DNA of 39,531 nt. Source: Wohlfahrtiimonas larvae (GTDB lineage: Bacteria; Pseudomonadota; Gammaproteobacteria; Cardiobacteriales; Wohlfahrtiimonadaceae). The stretch is taken from the NCBI RefSeq assembly GCF_002006755.1, contig NZ_MVDO01000001.1:1-39531 (forward strand), written 5' to 3'. The first letter of the stretch is position 1; the number at the start of each line of letters is the position of its first letter. Made by a program: the position numbers and the translations under genes. A model generated the notes under the pieces. The model had not been told where the DNA came from. It did not search any database and saw nothing but the letters and a program-made list of their open reading frames with translations. This document shows, piece by piece, positions 13,435-36,444 of the stretch.

Positions 13435-14694
13435 GTGAAGTTGTTGTGGAATTGGTACATGAGCAAATCTTTTATGCTCAAAATTACGGTAGGTTTTATT
13501 CTTGGATTGGTTTTTGGTGTTGTACTAGGCCCACAAAATGCAATTTTTTCACCGCTTGGTGCTATCTTTATGAATTTATTGAAAATGATCGTAATTCCGC
13601 TTATTTTCTTATCATTGGTAGTTGCGGTTAATCATTCAAGCCCATCTGAATTGGGTCGTATTGGTGTCAAAGTTTTCCCAATTTATATCGTAACGACGGC
13701 ATTATCTGTTGTGATCGGTATTGTGATTGCGAAATTGATGAATCCTGGTGCTGGCGTAAAGTTACAAGAAGGTATTTCTGTGACTGTGCCTGATCGCCCA
13801 AGCTTCGTGGATACGATTATTAATATGGTGCCAACGAATATTGTGAAAACATTTGCTGATGGCAATATTTTAGCAATCGTGTTTGTGGCAATCATCATTG
13901 GTATTTCGATGTTGTACATGCGCCATTCGGATGATGCTACTCACAAAAATATGGGTGAAACACTCATGAAATTTGTGGAAGCTGCGAATGAAGTGACATT
14001 AAGAATCTTGAGCGGTATTTTGCAATATGCACCGATTGGTGTGTTTGGCATCACAGCAGCAACAATTGGCGCGCAAGGCTTAGATACAGTGATTGCATTG
14101 GGTAAGTTTATTTTAACTTCATACATCGGCGTTGGTTTATTGTTGGTTGTGTTCTATCCATTAATTTTAAAATTGTGGGGCTGTAAGGTTATTCAATTTT
14201 ACCGTGATATTAAAGAATGTATGCTGACATCATTTGTGACAGCAAGCAGCTTAGGTACATTGCCAATTTCAATTCGTGCAGCGAAAAAAGCAGGCATTGA
14301 TGAAAGCATTGCGAACTTAACATTGCCGATTGGTGCAACTGTGAATATGAATGGTACAGCATTGCGCTTGGGTGTTGCGGTGATCTTTGCCTCAGAAATC
14401 ATGGGTATCGATTTAAGTATCGTTGAACTTGTGTCGATTATCTTAATTGGTACATTGACAGCAGTTGGGACAGCTGGTGTTCCTGGTACTGGTTTGATCG
14501 CGATGTCCGCAGTATTTGCTCAAGCAGGTTTGCCAATTGAGATTGTTGCGTTAACAGCAGGGATTAATATTTTGGTGGATATGGTGTTTACATTAGGAAA
14601 TGTAACAGGTGACTTGGTTGCAGCTAAAATGGTGGATCTATCAGAAAAGCGAGCAGCTGCTAAATTAGGAGCACCTTCTGTAGAACTTTCTTGA
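13435..14694 (+). CDS. Dicarboxylate/amino acid:cation symporter (DAACS, DctA/GltT family)
   Basis: 419 residues from the GTG at 13435, chosen because AGGAGG (13423-13428) sits 6 bases upstream; the ATG at 13459 is an alternative. The glutamate-transporter fold is recognised from the HP1 loop TASSLGTLPISI, the TM7 motif NMNGTA, the HP2 stretch GTAGVPGTGLIAM, and TM8 LGNVTGDLVAAK. It imports dicarboxylates or acidic amino acids coupled to Na+ or H+. Its divergent position to the LysR regulator and the 2-oxoadipate genes suggests uptake of a substrate for that pathway (inference). Its TGA stop overlaps the -35 box of the following tyrosine-leader promoter. Confidence 0.92.
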   Translation: MKLLWNWYMSKSFMLKITVGFILGLVFGVVLGPQNAIFSPLGAIFMNLLKMIVIPLIFLSLVVAVNHSSPSELGRIGVKVFPIYIVTTALSVVIGIVIAKLMNPGAGVKLQEGISVTVPDRPSFVDTIINMVPTNIVKTFADGNILAIVFVAIIIGISMLYMRHSDDATHKNMGETLMKFVEAANEVTLRILSGILQYAPIGVFGITAATIGAQGLDTVIALGKFILTSYIGVGLLLVVFYPLILKLWGCKVIQFYRDIKECMLTSFVTASSLGTLPISIRAAKKAGIDESIANLTLPIGATVNMNGTALRLGVAVIFASEIMGIDLSIVELVSIILIGTLTAVGTAGVPGTGLIAMSAVFAQAGLPIEIVALTAGINILVDMVFTLGNVTGDLVAAKMVDLSEKRAAAKLGAPSVELS

Positions 14695-14718
14695 CATCTT
14701 TTTTAAAAAGATTATGAT
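14691..14718 (+). promoter_or_regulatory. Promoter of the tyrosine-leader/trpF-like transcript
   Basis: Consensus -35 TTGACA (14691-14696) and near-consensus -10 TATGAT (14713-14718) with 16-bp spacing. The -35 overlaps the stop codon of the symporter gene. The expected start near 14725 leaves a short 5' leader before the 19-codon leader ORF. Confidence 0.75.
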
Positions 14719-14751: not shown

Positions 14752-14811
14752 ATGAACCAATTTTTTGCGAACTACTATTATTACTATTATCTCCACAAGC
14801 GGGAGATATAG
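14752..14811 (+). CDS. Tyrosine-rich leader peptide (attenuator leader, 6 consecutive Tyr)
   Basis: The ORF encodes the 19-residue peptide MNQFFANYYYYYYLHKREI and ends at TAG 14809-14811. The six Tyr codons (14773-14790) mix TAC and TAT. It sits between a strong promoter and a rho-independent terminator, with a gene just after, which is the exact layout of an amino-acid attenuation leader. Two Phe codons precede the Tyr run. No strong Shine-Dalgarno is seen upstream (AATTAAATAT). The 3' part of the ORF (CACAAGCGGGAGATATAG) resembles the equivalent part of the trp leader in this window (CACAAGGCGGGAGATTTAG). I read it as a sensor of charged tRNA-Tyr, possibly with a Phe contribution. Confidence 0.82.
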   Translation: MNQFFANYYYYYYLHKREI

Positions 14812-14878
14812 CTGTTCGTGAATCAAAAATAGTTCACCCTATATCAAATGAAAGCCCGCTAGAAAGCGGGCTTTTTTT
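14788..14878 (+). promoter_or_regulatory. Tyrosine-responsive transcription attenuator (alternative RNA structures)
   Basis: Three mutually exclusive structures can be drawn. The protector hairpin TATCTCC/GGAGATA (14788-14794 with 14802-14808) overlaps the last Tyr codon. The antiterminator stacks AGCGGG (14798-14803) with CCCGCT (14855-14860), GATATAG (14805-14811) with CTATATC (14839-14845), and GTGAA (14818-14822) with TTCAC (14833-14837). The terminator is at 14851-14874. A ribosome stalled on Tyr codons would break the protector and allow the antiterminator, giving read-through. A ribosome reaching the stop codon would cover the antiterminator's 5' strand and allow termination. The pairings are directly visible; the regulation is inferred from the classical trp/phe attenuation model. 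Confidence 0.78.
14851..14878 (+). terminator. Attenuator terminator before the trpF-like gene
   Basis: Perfect 10-bp stem AAAGCCCGCT (14851-14860) and AGCGGGCTTT (14865-14874), loop AGAA, continuing into a T-run. It lies 18 bases before the next start codon. Confidence 0.9.
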
Positions 14879-14896: not shown

Positions 14897-15487
14897 ATGG
14901 CAGCGTTAACACAATTGAAAACATTACAATCGAAAGAATCCATTGTGAGTGGTATTACAAGTCGTGCAGATTTAATGGCAGCACATGCAGCAGGTGCAAC
15001 TTATGCAGGCTTTATTTTTGTGTTGACGTCGCCTTATGGCATTGCGATTGAAGAAGCGAAAGAGATCGCCAAAAATTCACCTTTAAAGCACATTGGTATT
15101 TTCCAAAATTCAGATTTAGCGGATATTTTGTATGTGGTGAATGAAATAAAACTTGATGCCATTTTATTGAATGGCTGGGAAACTCAGGCATTTATTACCC
15201 AATTGCGTACGCAATTACCTGAATCTATTAAAATTATCAAAATTGCTCATTTAAAGGATGATGCGCCCAAAATGAATTACCAACATGTGGATTTTTACTT
15301 ATTGGGCGGCCATGTTGGGGAAATTCTAGAGCCGAATTGGACATTACTCCAAAATATAGATTTGAGTAATGTATTTTTATCAGGCAACTGGAGGGATAGT
15401 ACATTGCTACCTAATATTGAATCTCGACCATTGGGTTTTGAGTTGAATTTTAAGATGTCAACTGCAAAAATGCATTGGTCCCATTAG
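14897..15487 (+). CDS. Stand-alone TrpF-like protein, probably a catalytically inactive pseudoenzyme
   Basis: 196 residues, AAGGA ribosome site, ATG start. It aligns along most of its length with the TrpF half of the trpCF product at 32965-34338: SGITSRADLMAAHAAGATYA against CGLKSLEAATAAYESGAYYG, then GFIFVLTSPYGI, HIGIFQNS, LDAILLNGWETQAFITQLRT. Phosphoribosylanthranilate isomerase needs a Cys in its K-x-C-G motif and an Asp near D-x-x-x-GGTG. Here the Cys is Ser (VSGIT), the QLHG motif is LLNG, and the Asp/GGTG/FDW region reads LLGGHVGEILEPNW. The last ~35 residues do not follow TrpF. It is therefore unlikely to isomerise PRA. It is the only gene behind the tyrosine attenuator, which suggests a tyrosine-linked regulatory or scavenging role (speculative). 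Its 3' end overlaps the convergent gene by 38 bp. Confidence 0.8.
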   Translation: MAALTQLKTLQSKESIVSGITSRADLMAAHAAGATYAGFIFVLTSPYGIAIEEAKEIAKNSPLKHIGIFQNSDLADILYVVNEIKLDAILLNGWETQAFITQLRTQLPESIKIIKIAHLKDDAPKMNYQHVDFYLLGGHVGEILEPNWTLLQNIDLSNVFLSGNWRDSTLLPNIESRPLGFELNFKMSTAKMHWSH

Positions 15488-31694: not shown

Positions 31695-31710
31695 TTTTTC
31701 AAATTAATGT

Positions 31711-31739
31711 TGACGGTTGCTTTTTATTCCGATAGATTA
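31711..31739 (+). promoter_or_regulatory. Promoter of the trp operon
   Basis: TTGACG (31711-31716) and TAGATT (31734-31739) with 17-bp spacing, just upstream of the trp leader ORF. No clear TrpR operator was recognised over it. Confidence 0.65.
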
Positions 31740-31767: not shown

Positions 31768-31854
31768 ATGACACGCATTACATCAGTTTCACGTAATTTT
31801 TGGTGGCAAATCTCTCACAAGGCGGGAGATTTAGTCGTGTCATGGCAAAAATAA
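31768..31854 (+). CDS. trpL: trp operon leader peptide TrpL
   Basis: A 28-codon ORF (begins MTRITSVSRNFWWQISHKAG, ends VSWQK) with tandem Trp codons at 31801-31806 and a third Trp codon at 31843-31845. An AAGGAA ribosome site lies about 8 bases upstream. It is followed by a rho-independent terminator and then trpD, the standard trp attenuation layout. Its central part, CACAAGGCGGGAGATTTAG, is clearly related to the tyrosine leader at 14752-14811. Confidence 0.88.
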   Translation: MTRITSVSRNFWWQISHKAGDLVVSWQK

Positions 31855-31901
31855 AAGTCAGTACATGAAAAAAGAAACCCGCATATAAGCGGGTTTTTTT
31901 T
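31808..31901 (+). promoter_or_regulatory. trp operon transcription attenuator
   Basis: The protector hairpin AAATCTCTC/GGGAGATTT (31808-31816 with 31824-31832, one G-U) starts 1 base after the Trp codons. The antiterminator can pair GCGGG (31822-31826) with CCCGC (31878-31882) around an inner TCATG/CATGA stem (31840-31844 with 31864-31868). The terminator is at 31875-31896. Stalling on TGG-TGG would open the protector and favour the antiterminator; completed translation would favour termination. The pairings are visible in sequence, and the behaviour follows the known trp attenuation model. Confidence 0.8.
31875..31901 (+). terminator. trp attenuator terminator
   Basis: AAACCCGC (31875-31882), loop ATATAA, GCGGGTTT (31889-31896) and a T-run: a perfect 8-bp stem 58 bases before trpD. 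Confidence 0.9.
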
Positions 31902-31959: not shown

Positions 31960-32958
31960 ATGAACCAATCATTACTAAAAGTTTACAACGGCGAATACTT
32001 ATCACAAGAAGAGAGCTTTGAAATCTTTTGTAATATCATCGAAGGACAAGTTTCTCCAATCCATTTAGCATCAATGTTAACGAGTATGAAAGTTCGTGGC
32101 GAATCCATCGCTGAATTAACAGGAGCTGCATTGGCATCATTGAAACATGCAGAAACTTTCCCAACGCCAGATTATATGTTTGCAGACATCGTTGGCACAG
32201 GCGGCGATGGCGCAAGCAGCATTAACATCTCTACAGCGAGCTCTTTTGTAGCAGCAGCATGTGGTTATCCAATCGCTAAACATGGTAATCGCAGTGTTTC
32301 AAGTTTGAGTGGTTCATCAGATGTATTGACAGAATTGGGCGTAGATATTTATTCAACACCAGAAAAATCAAGAAAATTGCTAGATGAATTGGGCGTTTGC
32401 TTCTTATTTGCTCAGCAATATCACAAAGGTTTTAAAAACGTTGCGCCAATTCGTGCAGAACTCAAAACTCGTACAATTTTCAATGTATTGGGCCCATTAA
32501 TCAATCCAGCGCGTCCTCGCATTGCGATCGTGGGTGTTTACCAAGATTCATTAGTTCGCCCAATGGCAGAAGTATTGAAAAACTTGGGTTACTTAAATGC
32601 AGCAGTGATCCATACAGCAGGTTTGGATGAAGTTTCATTACATGCAGATGCACATATTGCTGAATTGGCAAATGGTGACATTGAAGAATACTACTTAACA
32701 GCGAAAGATTTTGGCTTGCCAATCATGACGATTGATGACATTCGTGGTGGTACGCCAGCAGAGAACAAAATCTTATTGGAAAATATTTTACAAGGCAAAG
32801 GCAAGGCCGCACATGAAAATGTCGTTGCGGCAAACGTTGCATTGTTGATGCGTTTATTTGGTAAGCGCAACGTGAAGCAAAATGTGGAAGAGGTTTTAAG
32901 CATGATTCGTACTGCAAAACCTTATGAAGTATTACAACAAATGGTGAGCAGAGGTTAA
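31960..32958 (+). CDS. trpD: Anthranilate phosphoribosyltransferase TrpD
   Basis: 332 residues, the usual length of a stand-alone TrpD. It transfers phosphoribosyl from PRPP to anthranilate. Signatures are FADIVGTGGDGASSINISTA (PRPP-binding GTGGD), IAKHGNRSVSSLSGSSDVL, and the NVLGPLINPARP segment. It lacks the TrpG glutaminase domain that is fused to TrpD in enterics. It is first in the operon after the attenuator, and trpCF begins 6 bp after its stop. Confidence 0.96.
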   Translation: MNQSLLKVYNGEYLSQEESFEIFCNIIEGQVSPIHLASMLTSMKVRGESIAELTGAALASLKHAETFPTPDYMFADIVGTGGDGASSINISTASSFVAAACGYPIAKHGNRSVSSLSGSSDVLTELGVDIYSTPEKSRKLLDELGVCFLFAQQYHKGFKNVAPIRAELKTRTIFNVLGPLINPARPRIAIVGVYQDSLVRPMAEVLKNLGYLNAAVIHTAGLDEVSLHADAHIAELANGDIEEYYLTAKDFGLPIMTIDDIRGGTPAENKILLENILQGKGKAAHENVVAANVALLMRLFGKRNVKQNVEEVLSMIRTAKPYEVLQQMVSRG

Positions 32959-32964
32959 TTGATC

Positions 32965-34338
32965 ATGGCAACTATCTTAGAAAAAATCGTCGCAGACAAA
33001 TACATTGAAGTAAGTTTATTGAAGCAGGAGAAACCTTTCTGTAATTTCCAAATGGATATTGAACCCAATGATCGTGATTTCTACGCATCATTAGCTTCAG
33101 CAAGGCCAGCTTATATTTTGGAGTGTAAGCCAAAATCACCTTCAAAAGGCACGATTAACCCAAACTTTAACTTAACAAAAATCGTGACAGCTTATTCACC
33201 ATTTGCTTCTGCAATTTCAGTGTTAACGGATAATAAATATTTTGGTGGCGAATTTAAGAACTTAAAAATTGCACGTGAATTAACAGATAAACCATTACTG
33301 TGCAAAGATTTCATTATTGATGAATACCAGATTTATTATGCGCGCTTACATGGTGCAAGCGCAGTATTATTGATGTTGTCAGTGTTATCCGATGATAAAT
33401 ATTTAGCACTTCGTGAAGTTGCACATTCATTGAATATGGGCGTATTGACAGAAACCAGTAATGAAGCTGAATTAGAAAGAGCAATCACACTCGATGCAAA
33501 AGTGATCGGCATCAATAACCGCGATCTACATACTTTAACTGTGAATTTAGAAACCACAAAAAAATTGGCAGTGAAGATTCCTGAAGATCGCATTGTGATC
33601 AGTGAATCAGGCATTTCATCTCACAATGATGTAGTAGATTTATCACCATATGCAGATGGATTCTTAGTAGGTAGCCATTTAGTGGGTTCAGATAATTTAG
33701 ATTTAGCATTGCGTGAATTGATTTTTGGTACACACAAAGTCTGTGGCTTGAAATCATTAGAAGCAGCAACGGCAGCTTATGAGTCGGGTGCTTATTATGG
33801 TGGCTTAATCTTTGTAGAAAAATCACCGCGCTATATTTCACCAGAAGATGCGAAAGCATTGATGAATGTACCATTAAATTTTGTGGGTGTTTTTCAGAAT
33901 GCGGCGATTGAATTTGTAAGCACAATTGCAAAGGATCTGAATTTAAAAGCAATTCAGTTGCATGGTGATGAAAATTCAGCATATATTACTGAACTACGTG
34001 CGGAATTACCGCAATCAGTGGAGATTTTTAAAGCTATTGATGCGAGCAAAATGGAAGCACAGCAAGATTATTTAACAAATGAATTAATTGATTGCATCGT
34101 GCTCGATTATGGGCAAGGTGGTACGGGGAAAAGCTTCGATTGGTCAATCATCCAAACATTACCACAGCGTCGTTATTTATTGGCGGGCGGAGTGGGAGAA
34201 GAGAATATCAGTGATGCATTGAATCAAAAAGTGACAGGCGTAGATATGAATTCCGCTTTAGAAGTCATTAAAGGTGAAAAATGCACGCAGAAGATACAGA
34301 ACATTTTTAAAACCATTCGTGAATACAGAACGGTTTAA
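32965..34338 (+). CDS. trpCF: Bifunctional indole-3-glycerol-phosphate synthase / phosphoribosylanthranilate isomerase TrpCF
   Basis: 457 residues from the ATG at 32965; the TTG at 32959 is not used. The N-terminal TrpC barrel (about 1-255) has YILECKPKSPSKG, LLCKDFIIDEYQIYYARLHG, VIGINNRDLHTLTVNLETT and RIVISESGIS. The C-terminal TrpF barrel (about 256-457) has the catalytic Cys in KVCGLKSLEA, AIQLHGDE, the catalytic Asp in IVLDYGQGGTGKSFDW, and LLAGGV. It therefore performs both the isomerisation of PRA to CdRP and the closure to indole-glycerol phosphate. An active TrpF here makes the stand-alone TrpF-like gene at 14897 unnecessary for tryptophan synthesis. Confidence 0.96.
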   Translation: MATILEKIVADKYIEVSLLKQEKPFCNFQMDIEPNDRDFYASLASARPAYILECKPKSPSKGTINPNFNLTKIVTAYSPFASAISVLTDNKYFGGEFKNLKIARELTDKPLLCKDFIIDEYQIYYARLHGASAVLLMLSVLSDDKYLALREVAHSLNMGVLTETSNEAELERAITLDAKVIGINNRDLHTLTVNLETTKKLAVKIPEDRIVISESGISSHNDVVDLSPYADGFLVGSHLVGSDNLDLALRELIFGTHKVCGLKSLEAATAAYESGAYYGGLIFVEKSPRYISPEDAKALMNVPLNFVGVFQNAAIEFVSTIAKDLNLKAIQLHGDENSAYITELRAELPQSVEIFKAIDASKMEAQQDYLTNELIDCIVLDYGQGGTGKSFDWSIIQTLPQRRYLLAGGVGEENISDALNQKVTGVDMNSALEVIKGEKCTQKIQNIFKTIREYRTV

Positions 34339-34363
34339 GATTAAAGCACAGAAATAGTAATAT

Positions 34364-34388
34364 GCTTCCCACGCGAAGCGTGGGAAGC
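34364..34388. repeat. Strong intercistronic hairpin between trpCF and trpB
   Basis: GCTTCCCACGC (34364-34374), loop GAA, GCGTGGGAAGC (34378-34388): a perfect 11-bp GC-rich stem in a 97-bp AT-rich gap. No T-run follows, so it is not a standard terminator. It could be an mRNA stability or processing element, or a REP-like dispersed sequence. No second copy was seen in the window. Confidence 0.7.
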
Positions 34389-34435
34389 TAAGTAGATAAA
34401 AATTTAAAAATAGTTTTAAATAAGGAAGGAAAATC

Positions 34436-35638
34436 ATGGCAATTTTAGATGCATATTTTGGGGAGTTTGGTGGTCAATACGTGCCTGAGTTATTGATTCC
34501 AGCGTTAGATCAATTAGAAAAAGCATTTGTAGAAGCAAAAGAAGATCCAGAATTCCAAGCTGAGTTTATGGATTTATTGAAAAACTTTGCAGGCAGACCA
34601 ACAGCGTTAACATTGTGTCAAAACTTAACCAAAGGTACGAAATCAAAGTTATATCTAAAGCGTGAAGATTTATTGCATGGCGGTGCGCATAAAACTAACC
34701 AAGTATTGGGTCAGGCATTATTAGCAAAACGTATGGGCAAAACTGAAATCATTGCAGAAACAGGCGCAGGTCAACATGGTGTGGCAACAGCAATTGCATG
34801 TGCATTATTGGGCTTAAAATGCCGTGTATATATGGGTGCAAAAGACGTAGAGCGCCAAGAGCCAAATGTGTTTCGCATGAAAATGATGGGTGCAACAGTC
34901 ATTCCAGTGCATTCAGGTACAGCAACATTGAAAGCAGCATGTACAGAAGCATTGCGTGACTGGGCTGAAAACTACCAAACAACACATTATTTATTAGGCA
35001 CAGCAGCAGGCCCGCATCCATTCCCAACGATTGTACGTGAATTCCAAAAGATGATCGGTGAAGAAGCAAAAGCACAAATCTTATCAAGAGAAGGTCGTTT
35101 GCCTGATAAAGTTTTGGCTTGTATTGGTGGTGGTTCAAATGCGATAGGTATGTTTGCTGATTTTATCCCTGAAGAAGGCGTTGAATTGATTGGTGTTGAA
35201 CCAGGTGGTTACGGTATTGAAACAGGCAAGCACGGCGCGCCATTAGGGCACGGCAAAACAGGGATTTTCTTTGGTATGAAATCCCCAATGATGCAGGATC
35301 AAGAAGGGCAAATTGAAGAATCTCACTCAGTTTCAGCAGGTTTAGATTTCCCATCTGTCGGCCCACAACATGCGCATTTACAAGCCATTGGTCGTGCGCA
35401 ATATGTTTCTATTACAGATGATGAAGCATTAGAGGCATTTAAAGCACTGTGCCGTAATGAAGGGATCATTCCTGCATTGGAATCATCACACGCATTAGCG
35501 CATGCATTGAAGATCATCCACGAAAATCCTGAAAAAGAGCAGCTAATTTTGGTGAACTTATCAGGCCGTGGTGATAAGGATATTTTTACAGTGGCGAAAA
35601 TTTTTGCAGAGCAAGAAGCACAAGGAAAGGGAGAATAA
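34436..35638 (+). CDS. trpB: Tryptophan synthase beta chain TrpB
   Basis: 400 residues. PLP Lys lies in [20 protein letters not shown], followed by [32 protein letters not shown] (COMM-domain region), phosphate-binding [12 protein letters not shown], and the monovalent-cation/COMM segment EPGGYG. It condenses indole with serine. GGAAGG precedes the ATG. The gap to trpA is 2 bp, so the two subunits are translationally linked. The gap to trpCF carries the hairpin at 34364-34388. Confidence 0.97.
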
Positions 35639-35640
35639 TC

Positions 35641-36444
35641 ATGAGTCGTTACGCTAAAAAATTCAGCGAGTTGAAAGCTAAAAATGAAGGTGCTTTTATC
35701 CCATTTGTGATGATTGGTGATCCTAATCCTGAAGATTCTTTAACCATTATAGAAACTTTGGTGGAAAATGGTGCAGATGGCTTGGAGTTGGGCGTTCCGT
35801 TTTCTGATCCAATGGCAGATGGCCCAATCATTCAAGATGCAGGTATTCGTGCATTTGATGCTGGTACTAATGTTGCAAAATCTTTTGAGATCATTGCAAA
35901 AGTGCGTGCGAAATATCCTGAGATTCCAATCGGCTTATTGATGTATGCAAACTTGGTTTATCGCCCAACTTTGGATGTGTTCTATAAAAAAATGGCAGAA
36001 ATCGGTGTAGATTCTGTATTAGTTGTGGATGTGCCATTGAGTGAATTTAAACCATTCAAAGAAGTTGCACGTGCTAATGGTATTGAGTCAATCTTCATCA
36101 TTCCACCGAATGCGAGTGAAGAAACTGTTCGCAAAACAGCAGAAGCCGCAGAAGGTTACATCTATTTAATGTCACGCAGTGGTACTACAGGCTTAAATAA
36201 AGCAACGGATGCAGGTTTGCCTAACTTAGTGAAATTGATTCGTTCTGTAACAAATGTACCAATCGTGCAAGGCTTTGGTATCAGTACGAAAGAACAAGTG
36301 AAAGATGCGATTACAATGGGTGTGGATGGTGCAATTTCAGGTTCATATATTGTGTCATTGATCGCAAAGCATCATCACAATATGGATGAGCTGAAAGCAG
36401 TTTTGAAAGACACTGTAACAGCACTGAAATCAGGCACAAAGTAG
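35641..36444 (+). CDS. trpA: Tryptophan synthase alpha chain TrpA
   Basis: 267 residues, full length. The catalytic Glu and Asp are in DGLELGVPFSDPMADGPIIQ, with PFVMIGDPNPEDSL before and YLMSRSGTTGLNKA, VQGFGIST and DGAISGSYIV after (phosphate-binding loops). It cleaves indole-glycerol phosphate to indole and G3P. GGAGA precedes the ATG. The last 27 codons including the stop (36364-36444) are repeated almost exactly at 37480-37560. Confidence 0.97.
   Translation: MSRYAKKFSELKAKNEGAFIPFVMIGDPNPEDSLTIIETLVENGADGLELGVPFSDPMADGPIIQDAGIRAFDAGTNVAKSFEIIAKVRAKYPEIPIGLLMYANLVYRPTLDVFYKKMAEIGVDSVLVVDVPLSEFKPFKEVARANGIESIFIIPPNASEETVRKTAEAAEGYIYLMSRSGTTGLNKATDAGLPNLVKLIRSVTNVPIVQGFGISTKEQVKDAITMGVDGAISGSYIVSLIAKHHHNMDELKAVLKDTVTALKSGTK
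36364..36444 (+). repeat. 81-bp direct repeat, copy 1 (native 3' end of trpA)
   Basis: The last 27 codons of trpA (GCAAAGCATCATCAC... to TAG). It matches copy 2 at 37480-37560 at 79 of 81 positions. Both differences (AAG/AAA and TTG/TTA) would be synonymous in the trpA frame. Confidence 0.95.

Follow-up and report, generated by a model that had tools for sequence, protein, structure and literature searches.

A Tyr-codon attenuator before a trpF-like gene in Wohlfahrtiimonas and its likely common origin with the trp attenuator

The E. coli trpL leader (Rfam RF00513) has a leader ORF, tandem Trp codons, three alternating helices, and a terminator before trp genes. The E. coli pheA and pheST attenuators contain a run of Phe codons and use ribosome-mediated attenuation (PMC11802643). 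The AroR leader of Corynebacterium glutamicum (Phe-Tyr-Phe), the only Tyr-containing leader described in the papers searched, is reported to respond to the availability of Phe and not of Tyr (PMC11802643). In bacilli, the hisS/hisZ leaders belong to paralogues with related attenuators, and switches of the sensing system have occurred (Naville and Gautheret 2010; PMC2965389). A survey of actinobacterial elements places tyrosine under T-boxes (PMC1262725). In the literature that we searched, we found no ribosome-mediated Tyr-responsive attenuator and no documented example of a natural change in the amino acid sensed by an attenuator; for the Tyr-responsive attenuator, absence from the literature as a whole is not established. 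Vitreschak et al. reportedly published a comparative paper on proteobacterial attenuators in 2004.

Wohlfahrtiimonas (Gammaproteobacteria) is a fly-associated bacterium. We analyzed a stretch of 39,531 nucleotides from Wohlfahrtiimonas larvae (the window). It contains two amino-acid attenuators, one of Trp type and one of Tyr type. From their sequences, both are predicted to be classical ribosome-mediated attenuators. The first precedes trpD-trpCF-trpB-trpA (operon at 31960-36444), and the second precedes a monocistronic trpF-like gene (14897-15487). Family genomes were grouped as Wohlfahrtiimonas (g1), a sister genus or lineage (g3), and a sister genus (g4) that is most likely Ignatzschineria, a name that we infer. 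G015 and G013 are W. chitiniclastica-type genomes. Our overall reading is that the two are classical attenuators with a common ancestor and that the Tyr leader was copied once and now drives a pseudoenzyme derived from TrpCF. We consider this reading fairly likely.

The Trp and Tyr leaders

The Trp leader was found 5' of trpD in 17/17 family genomes with the trpD operon, nine of them from g4. In the window, the leader and operon contain the following features.

31710-31738, + strand: promoter-like TTGACG-17-TAGATT, 5' of the Trp leader (consensus scan, 9/12 matches; such sites are no commoner than in shuffles)
31768-31854, + strand: Trp leader ORF, MTRITSVSRNFWWQISHKAGDLVVSWQK (sequence; trpD leader kept in the 17 genomes)
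31801-31806, + strand: two Trp control codons (sequence; TGGTGG invariant across 17 leaders)
31808-31832, + strand: protector hairpin, AAATCTCTC (31808-31816) / GGGAGATTT (31824-31832) (sequence, folds)
31822-31826, + strand: GCGGG antiterminator arm (5 pairs with CCCGC once the ribosome-covered stretch is removed)
31875-31901, + strand: intrinsic terminator, arms AAACCCGC (31875-31882) / GCGGGTTT (31889-31896) (folds; hairpin and T-run read directly)
31960-32958, + strand: trpD (TIGR01245, 387.5 bits)
32959-34338, + strand: trpCF fusion with intact PRAI active site (NF006945, 603 bits; residues intact)
34436-36444, + strand: trpB and trpA (TIGR00263, TIGR00262)

The trpD leader shares with E. 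coli trpL its ORF, tandem Trp codons, three alternating helices, and terminator before trp genes. Unlike trpL, it lies before trpD and not trpE. It scores 40.6 bits against the RF00513 Trp_leader model, 0.4 below the curated cut-off of 41, and the Tyr leader scores 22 bits. It also differs from RF00513 in its core, ATCTC..GCGGGAGAT, which was seen in this family only. The distance from the last control codon to the start of GCGGG is 16-18 nt in trpD leaders. When Trp is scarce, a ribosome stalled at TGG TGG would cover the 5' arm of the protector. GCGGG would then be free to capture CCCGC, and the terminator would be prevented. When Trp is sufficient, the protector would re-form and transcription would end 5' of trpD.

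The Tyr leader lies before the trpF-like gene in 8/8 genomes that have this gene, six from Wohlfahrtiimonas and two from g3. In the window, it contains the following features.

14691-14718, + strand: promoter-like TTGACA-16-TATGAT, 5' of the Tyr leader (consensus scan, 11/12 matches)
14752-14811, + strand: Tyr leader ORF, MNQFFANYYYYYYLHKREI (sequence; orthologous in the eight genomes)
14773-14790, + strand: six consecutive Tyr control codons, TAC TAT TAT TAC TAT TAT (sequence; mostly synonymous changes between species)
14788-14808, + strand: protector hairpin, TATCTCC (14788-14794) / GGAGATA (14802-14808) (folds)
14799-14803, + strand: GCGGG arm that can pair with terminator CCCGC (all 5 pairs with the covered part removed, Tyr codons 1-5)
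14850-14878, + strand: intrinsic terminator, arms AAAGCCCGC (14851-14859) / GCGGGCTTT (14866-14874) (terminator scan, folds)
14897-15487, + strand: trpF-like gene, predicted pseudoenzyme with PRAI fold (PF00697, 66.7 bits; dN/dS; AlphaFold2)

TAT/TAC exchange dominates in the Tyr run among the eight genomes, with a single Asp interruption in G013. The last TAT of the run is part of the 5' arm of the protector. Measured from the last Tyr codon, the distance to the start of GCGGG is 11-12 nt, which is too near; from the third last it is 17-18 nt. The third-last codon is at a trpD-like spacing, and effective stalling therefore probably takes place within the run. The leader appears to sense Tyr, and a shortage of Tyr is predicted to raise the trpF-like pseudoenzyme. 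As in the pheA and pheST attenuators, an aromatic amino acid would be sensed by a codon run. Those attenuators differ in having Phe codons and in controlling pheA or pheST, and the Tyr leader scores 26.4 vs 55 bits on Rfam Phe_leader. The AroR leader resembles it in that its peptide includes a Tyr codon and an aromatic pathway gene follows, but it has no Tyr run. No leader with a terminator was found in the pheA upstream regions.

In both leaders, a short ORF carries consecutive copies of the sensed codon. The 3' arm of each protector overlaps GCGGG, and CCCGC is part of the 5' arm of each terminator. Ribosome cover was assumed to be 13 nt from the A-site codon. In both leaders, the free form is predicted to fold into the terminator, and removal of the covered stretch is predicted to give the GCGGG/CCCGC antiterminator. 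The protector, antiterminator, and terminator helices are mutually exclusive in these folding predictions. The preliminary description had placed a protector after the control codons, GCGGG in the leader ORF, and CCCGC in the terminator of both leaders, and its sequences and coordinates check out.

In the Tyr leaders of the window and G014, the core loop (14795-14803) has one base fewer than in other species, and the frame is shifted. As a result, the protector in the window has a stop codon at its end. Bases at the beginning of the leader ORF can also pair with the region behind the core and enclose the control codons (31768-31850 and 14752-14842 in the window). This outer helix was seen in the Tyr leaders, the trpD leaders, and several trpE leaders; its strength was variable, and single z-scores were modest. 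It was not counted as evidence of common origin because of its presence in many leaders, including those of trpE, and its modest z. It might also restrict leader translation.

The trpF-like gene and its origin

The trpF-like protein scores 66.7 bits against PF00697 (cut-off 22.7), which identifies a homologous (beta/alpha)8 PRAI domain. AlphaFold2 predicts eight strands with a mean pLDDT of 80.6, and the first-ranked Foldseek match of this model is 1PII (E 7.8e-13). The protein falls below the NCBIfam equivalog cut-offs, with 101.9 vs 380 bits for NF006945 and 57.8 vs 215 bits for the best single-domain model. It shares fold and homologous sequence with the PRAI domain of TrpCF (1PII) and differs in four replaced residues and a short C-terminus. 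In an alignment of the trpF-like proteins, all four checked active-site residues are lost: Cys260, Arg289, His334, and Asp379 (1PII numbering, E. coli enzyme) are replaced by Ser, Tyr/Phe, Asn, and Gly. We take C260 and D379 to be catalytic in PRAI, together with R289 and H334. The TrpCF of the same genomes keeps the four residues; the g3 row is gapped at 260, where the piece was cut, and the sequence there reads KVCG. Between species, dN/dS is 0.04-0.15 (strong purifying selection), so the gene is maintained. The protein is probably a pseudoenzyme and not TrpF, conserved apparently without catalysis. Its N-terminal helix could be what is left of the TrpC-TrpF junction. The preliminary description had each leader standing before a TrpF-encoding transcript. 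This holds loosely, as the TrpF domain of the operon lies behind trpD and the TrpC domain and the other gene encodes an inactive-looking relative.

In a tree of full-length TrpCF, g1, g3, and g4 formed one group (97/94). In a PRAI tree, the trpF-like proteins fell inside the family TrpCF, with g4 and g3 (96/91). A position outside g1, g3, and g4 was rejected (p 0.005), and the gene thus belongs within the TrpCF of the lineage, as the preliminary description had supposed. A grouping with Wohlfahrtiimonas TrpCF was rejected as well (p-AU 0.001). The trpF-like branch is long, which makes its precise position within g4 unreliable. The identity of the protein is 31% with the PRAI domain of TrpCF from its own genome and 42-48% with g4 TrpCF. 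The g4 genomes do not contain the trpF-like gene. Judged from these trees and identities, the gene is a copy from a Wohlfahrtiimonadaceae TrpCF PRAI domain and not of the present TrpCF of the genus. It would be either an old copy, lost in g4 while Wohlfahrtiimonas TrpCF changed fast, or a transferred one.

The leader and the gene may also have had separate origins. The source of the gene would then be a TrpCF of g4 type (Ignatzschineria type), perhaps through transfer, and later the gene would have come under a copied local trp leader. The gene tree points to g4 in agreement with this account, and the leader tree is neutral. The leader tree, whose support is low, places the Tyr leaders in one group (88/87). 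It does not identify the parent trp leader, so that a joint duplication of leader and gene is conjectural. Separate origins nevertheless seem somewhat unlikely, since leader and gene occur together in all eight genomes and at three different genomic positions. One group of genomes has a dicarboxylate-symporter-type gene and a diphthine-ammonia-ligase-like gene as neighbors, and other genes adjoin the pair in W. chitiniclastica and g3. Because the neighbors differ between groups, the Tyr leader and the trpF-like gene travel as a pair.

In the window, the last 38 bases of the trpF-like ORF (15450-15487) also belong to the convergent diphthine-ammonia-ligase-like gene. The trpF-like ORF of G014 stops earlier than that of the window.

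Likeness of the two leaders

The preliminary description had given the two leaders a shared CACAAG...TAG core. Part of the agreement in these exact letters is a local coincidence. Where the window has CACAAG, its Tyr orthologues have CACGAT, CACCAT, or CACTTC, and the TAG of the Trp leader is out of frame. A conserved core does exist and reads ATCTC-(loop)-GCGGGAG(A/G)T.

One search model was made from trpD leaders only (R1) and another from the core alone (R2). Models of this type were built from the core and not from whole leaders because MAFFT put the terminator arm in the wrong place when whole leaders were aligned. With R1, the Tyr leader was the best extra match genome-wide in G000 (E 0.016) and G016 (E 7.6e-4), and the G017 Tyr leader scored weakly. 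The other good R1 matches were in coding regions, save for the W. chitiniclastica trpE leaders. In G000, R2 matched exactly two sites, the Trp leader and the Tyr leader. The remaining 275 gammaproteobacteria scanned gave, by inspection, no leader. An occurrence of the core in unrelated leaders, which the preliminary description had named as evidence against its account, was therefore not found among these 276 genomes. Across the order, a Tyr-core pattern matched the Tyr leaders only, plus two coincidences in coding regions. A pattern for a Tyr-run attenuator with GCGGG/CCCGC matched this locus only in 370 gammaproteobacteria, plus one match in G302. By inspection, the G302 match is GC-rich and reads as an open coding frame, and it was rejected.

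Leaders were also compared pairwise up to the terminator, with dinucleotide shuffles. Tyr vs trpD leaders gave mean z values mostly of 5-9, falling to 1-2 in some pairs (G013 and G003 Tyr leaders vs g3 or g4 trpD leaders). Most trpE leaders of the same family were near background against the Tyr leaders (mean z about -1 to 2). Some g4 trpE leaders were exceptions and reached a maximal z of 3-6 vs single Tyr leaders. The trpE Trp leaders of g4, G000, G014, and G016 are natural controls, having the same codons and terminator type with another intervening sequence. With the control codons and GCGGG masked, the trpD and trpE partner groups were still apart (partner-level p 0.001).

The specific likeness, its survival under masking, and the absence of the core from other scanned leaders make a common origin of the Trp and Tyr devices quite likely. 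Relative to the trpE controls, they support the earlier view that the two leaders are copies of one device. Convergence would instead have independent attenuators become alike through mutual helix constraints and common GCGGG/CCCGC terminators. The shared core is indeed short (about 20 bases), functionally loaded, and in part fixed by the mechanism. GCGGG terminators recur in trpE leaders of the family, and masking shrinks the difference between partner groups (median 29 vs 21). Even so, the family has two further sets of Trp leaders that are under the same constraints, have different sequences, and as a group are unlike the Tyr leader. The scan of other gammaproteobacteria also turned up no leader with the core, and we regard convergence as unlikely.

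On the reading of common origin, a trp leader of the family was most likely copied a single time, in a lineage that had not yet split into Wohlfahrtiimonas and g3, and the copy became the Tyr leader. The core would have been kept. Two Trp codons and the next codon would have become five or six Tyr codons, the last TAT doubling as a protector arm. A ribosome stalled three codons before the end would be 17-18 nt from GCGGG, as in trpD leaders. The Tyr leader would now drive a monocistronic pseudoenzyme gene from the PRAI domain of TrpCF. We infer the direction of change from Trp to Tyr and the single copying event.

The preliminary description had proposed that trpL and trpF were duplicated together within the genus, from its own operon. 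Both the leader and TrpF do have relatives in the trp operon, and the N-terminal helix fits a remnant of the TrpC-TrpF junction. At the level of the genus, this proposal is refuted by the rejected grouping with own-genus TrpCF and by the lower identity to it than to g4 TrpCF, and we consider it very improbable. TrpF also does not adjoin the leader in the operon. Joint copying would need a deletion because trpD and the TrpC domain separate the two. A joint copy made at the level of the family, or one brought in by transfer, may nevertheless have occurred. Descent from a Leu-type leader is also very improbable: the best Rfam match of the Tyr leader is Leu_leader (RF00512; 39.2 bits, E 4.6e-7), but this is below the curated cut-off of 50, ten further family matches inspected were nine non-leaders (mostly plain terminators) and one trpD leader, and none of 18 genomes has a Leu leader above the cut-off.

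Implications and other trp loci of the family

In the Tyr/Trp pair, a sensor appears to have been re-tuned in nature to another amino acid. In the hisS/hisZ leaders, it is the sensing system that changes, from T-box to leader peptide. In Wohlfahrtiimonas, one design is kept and the sensed amino acid appears to have changed. Trp-type and Tyr-type leaders of this design coexist in several species, so that the re-tuning path, in which the codon run is extended into the protector arm and the switch is kept, is open to codon-swap tests.

An inactive-looking TrpF that is controlled by Tyr is a hint of cross-talk: the Trp and Tyr branches compete for chorismate. In one scenario, an ancestor among the Wohlfahrtiimonadaceae copied a single segment that carried both a trp leader and a TrpF domain, and the codons changed from Trp to Tyr with the RNA switch unaltered. 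The enzyme would have become a noncatalytic regulator induced by Tyr starvation, for example a brake that keeps chorismate from the Trp branch when Tyr is short. We put this forward as a speculation and regard it as improbable.

The trpE Trp leader of the W. chitiniclastica-type genomes G015 and G013 (L136:836-893, L137) carries the same core, MTHFTQYLWWHISSSREM. Elsewhere in Wohlfahrtiimonas, the Trp leader of trpE is a different one and lacks the core. The core-bearing trpE leaders suggest that leaders of this design were re-used elsewhere, and they offer a precedent for such re-use.

The TrpE of G015 and G013 is of another lineage. It is 57% identical to g3 TrpE and 44-48% identical to the TrpE of G000, G014, and G016. 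In the g3 genome G003 (L149), trpB and trpA are directly followed by trpE, and a single Trp leader may thus control trpD-CF-B-A-E. G026 (L063), from another family of the order, encodes a TrpCF fusion that groups with those of E. coli and G252, and its relatives have a separate TrpF. This fusion would reflect transfer or contamination. In the g4 genome G007 (L154, L174), trpE is present twice, and both copies have a Trp leader of their own.
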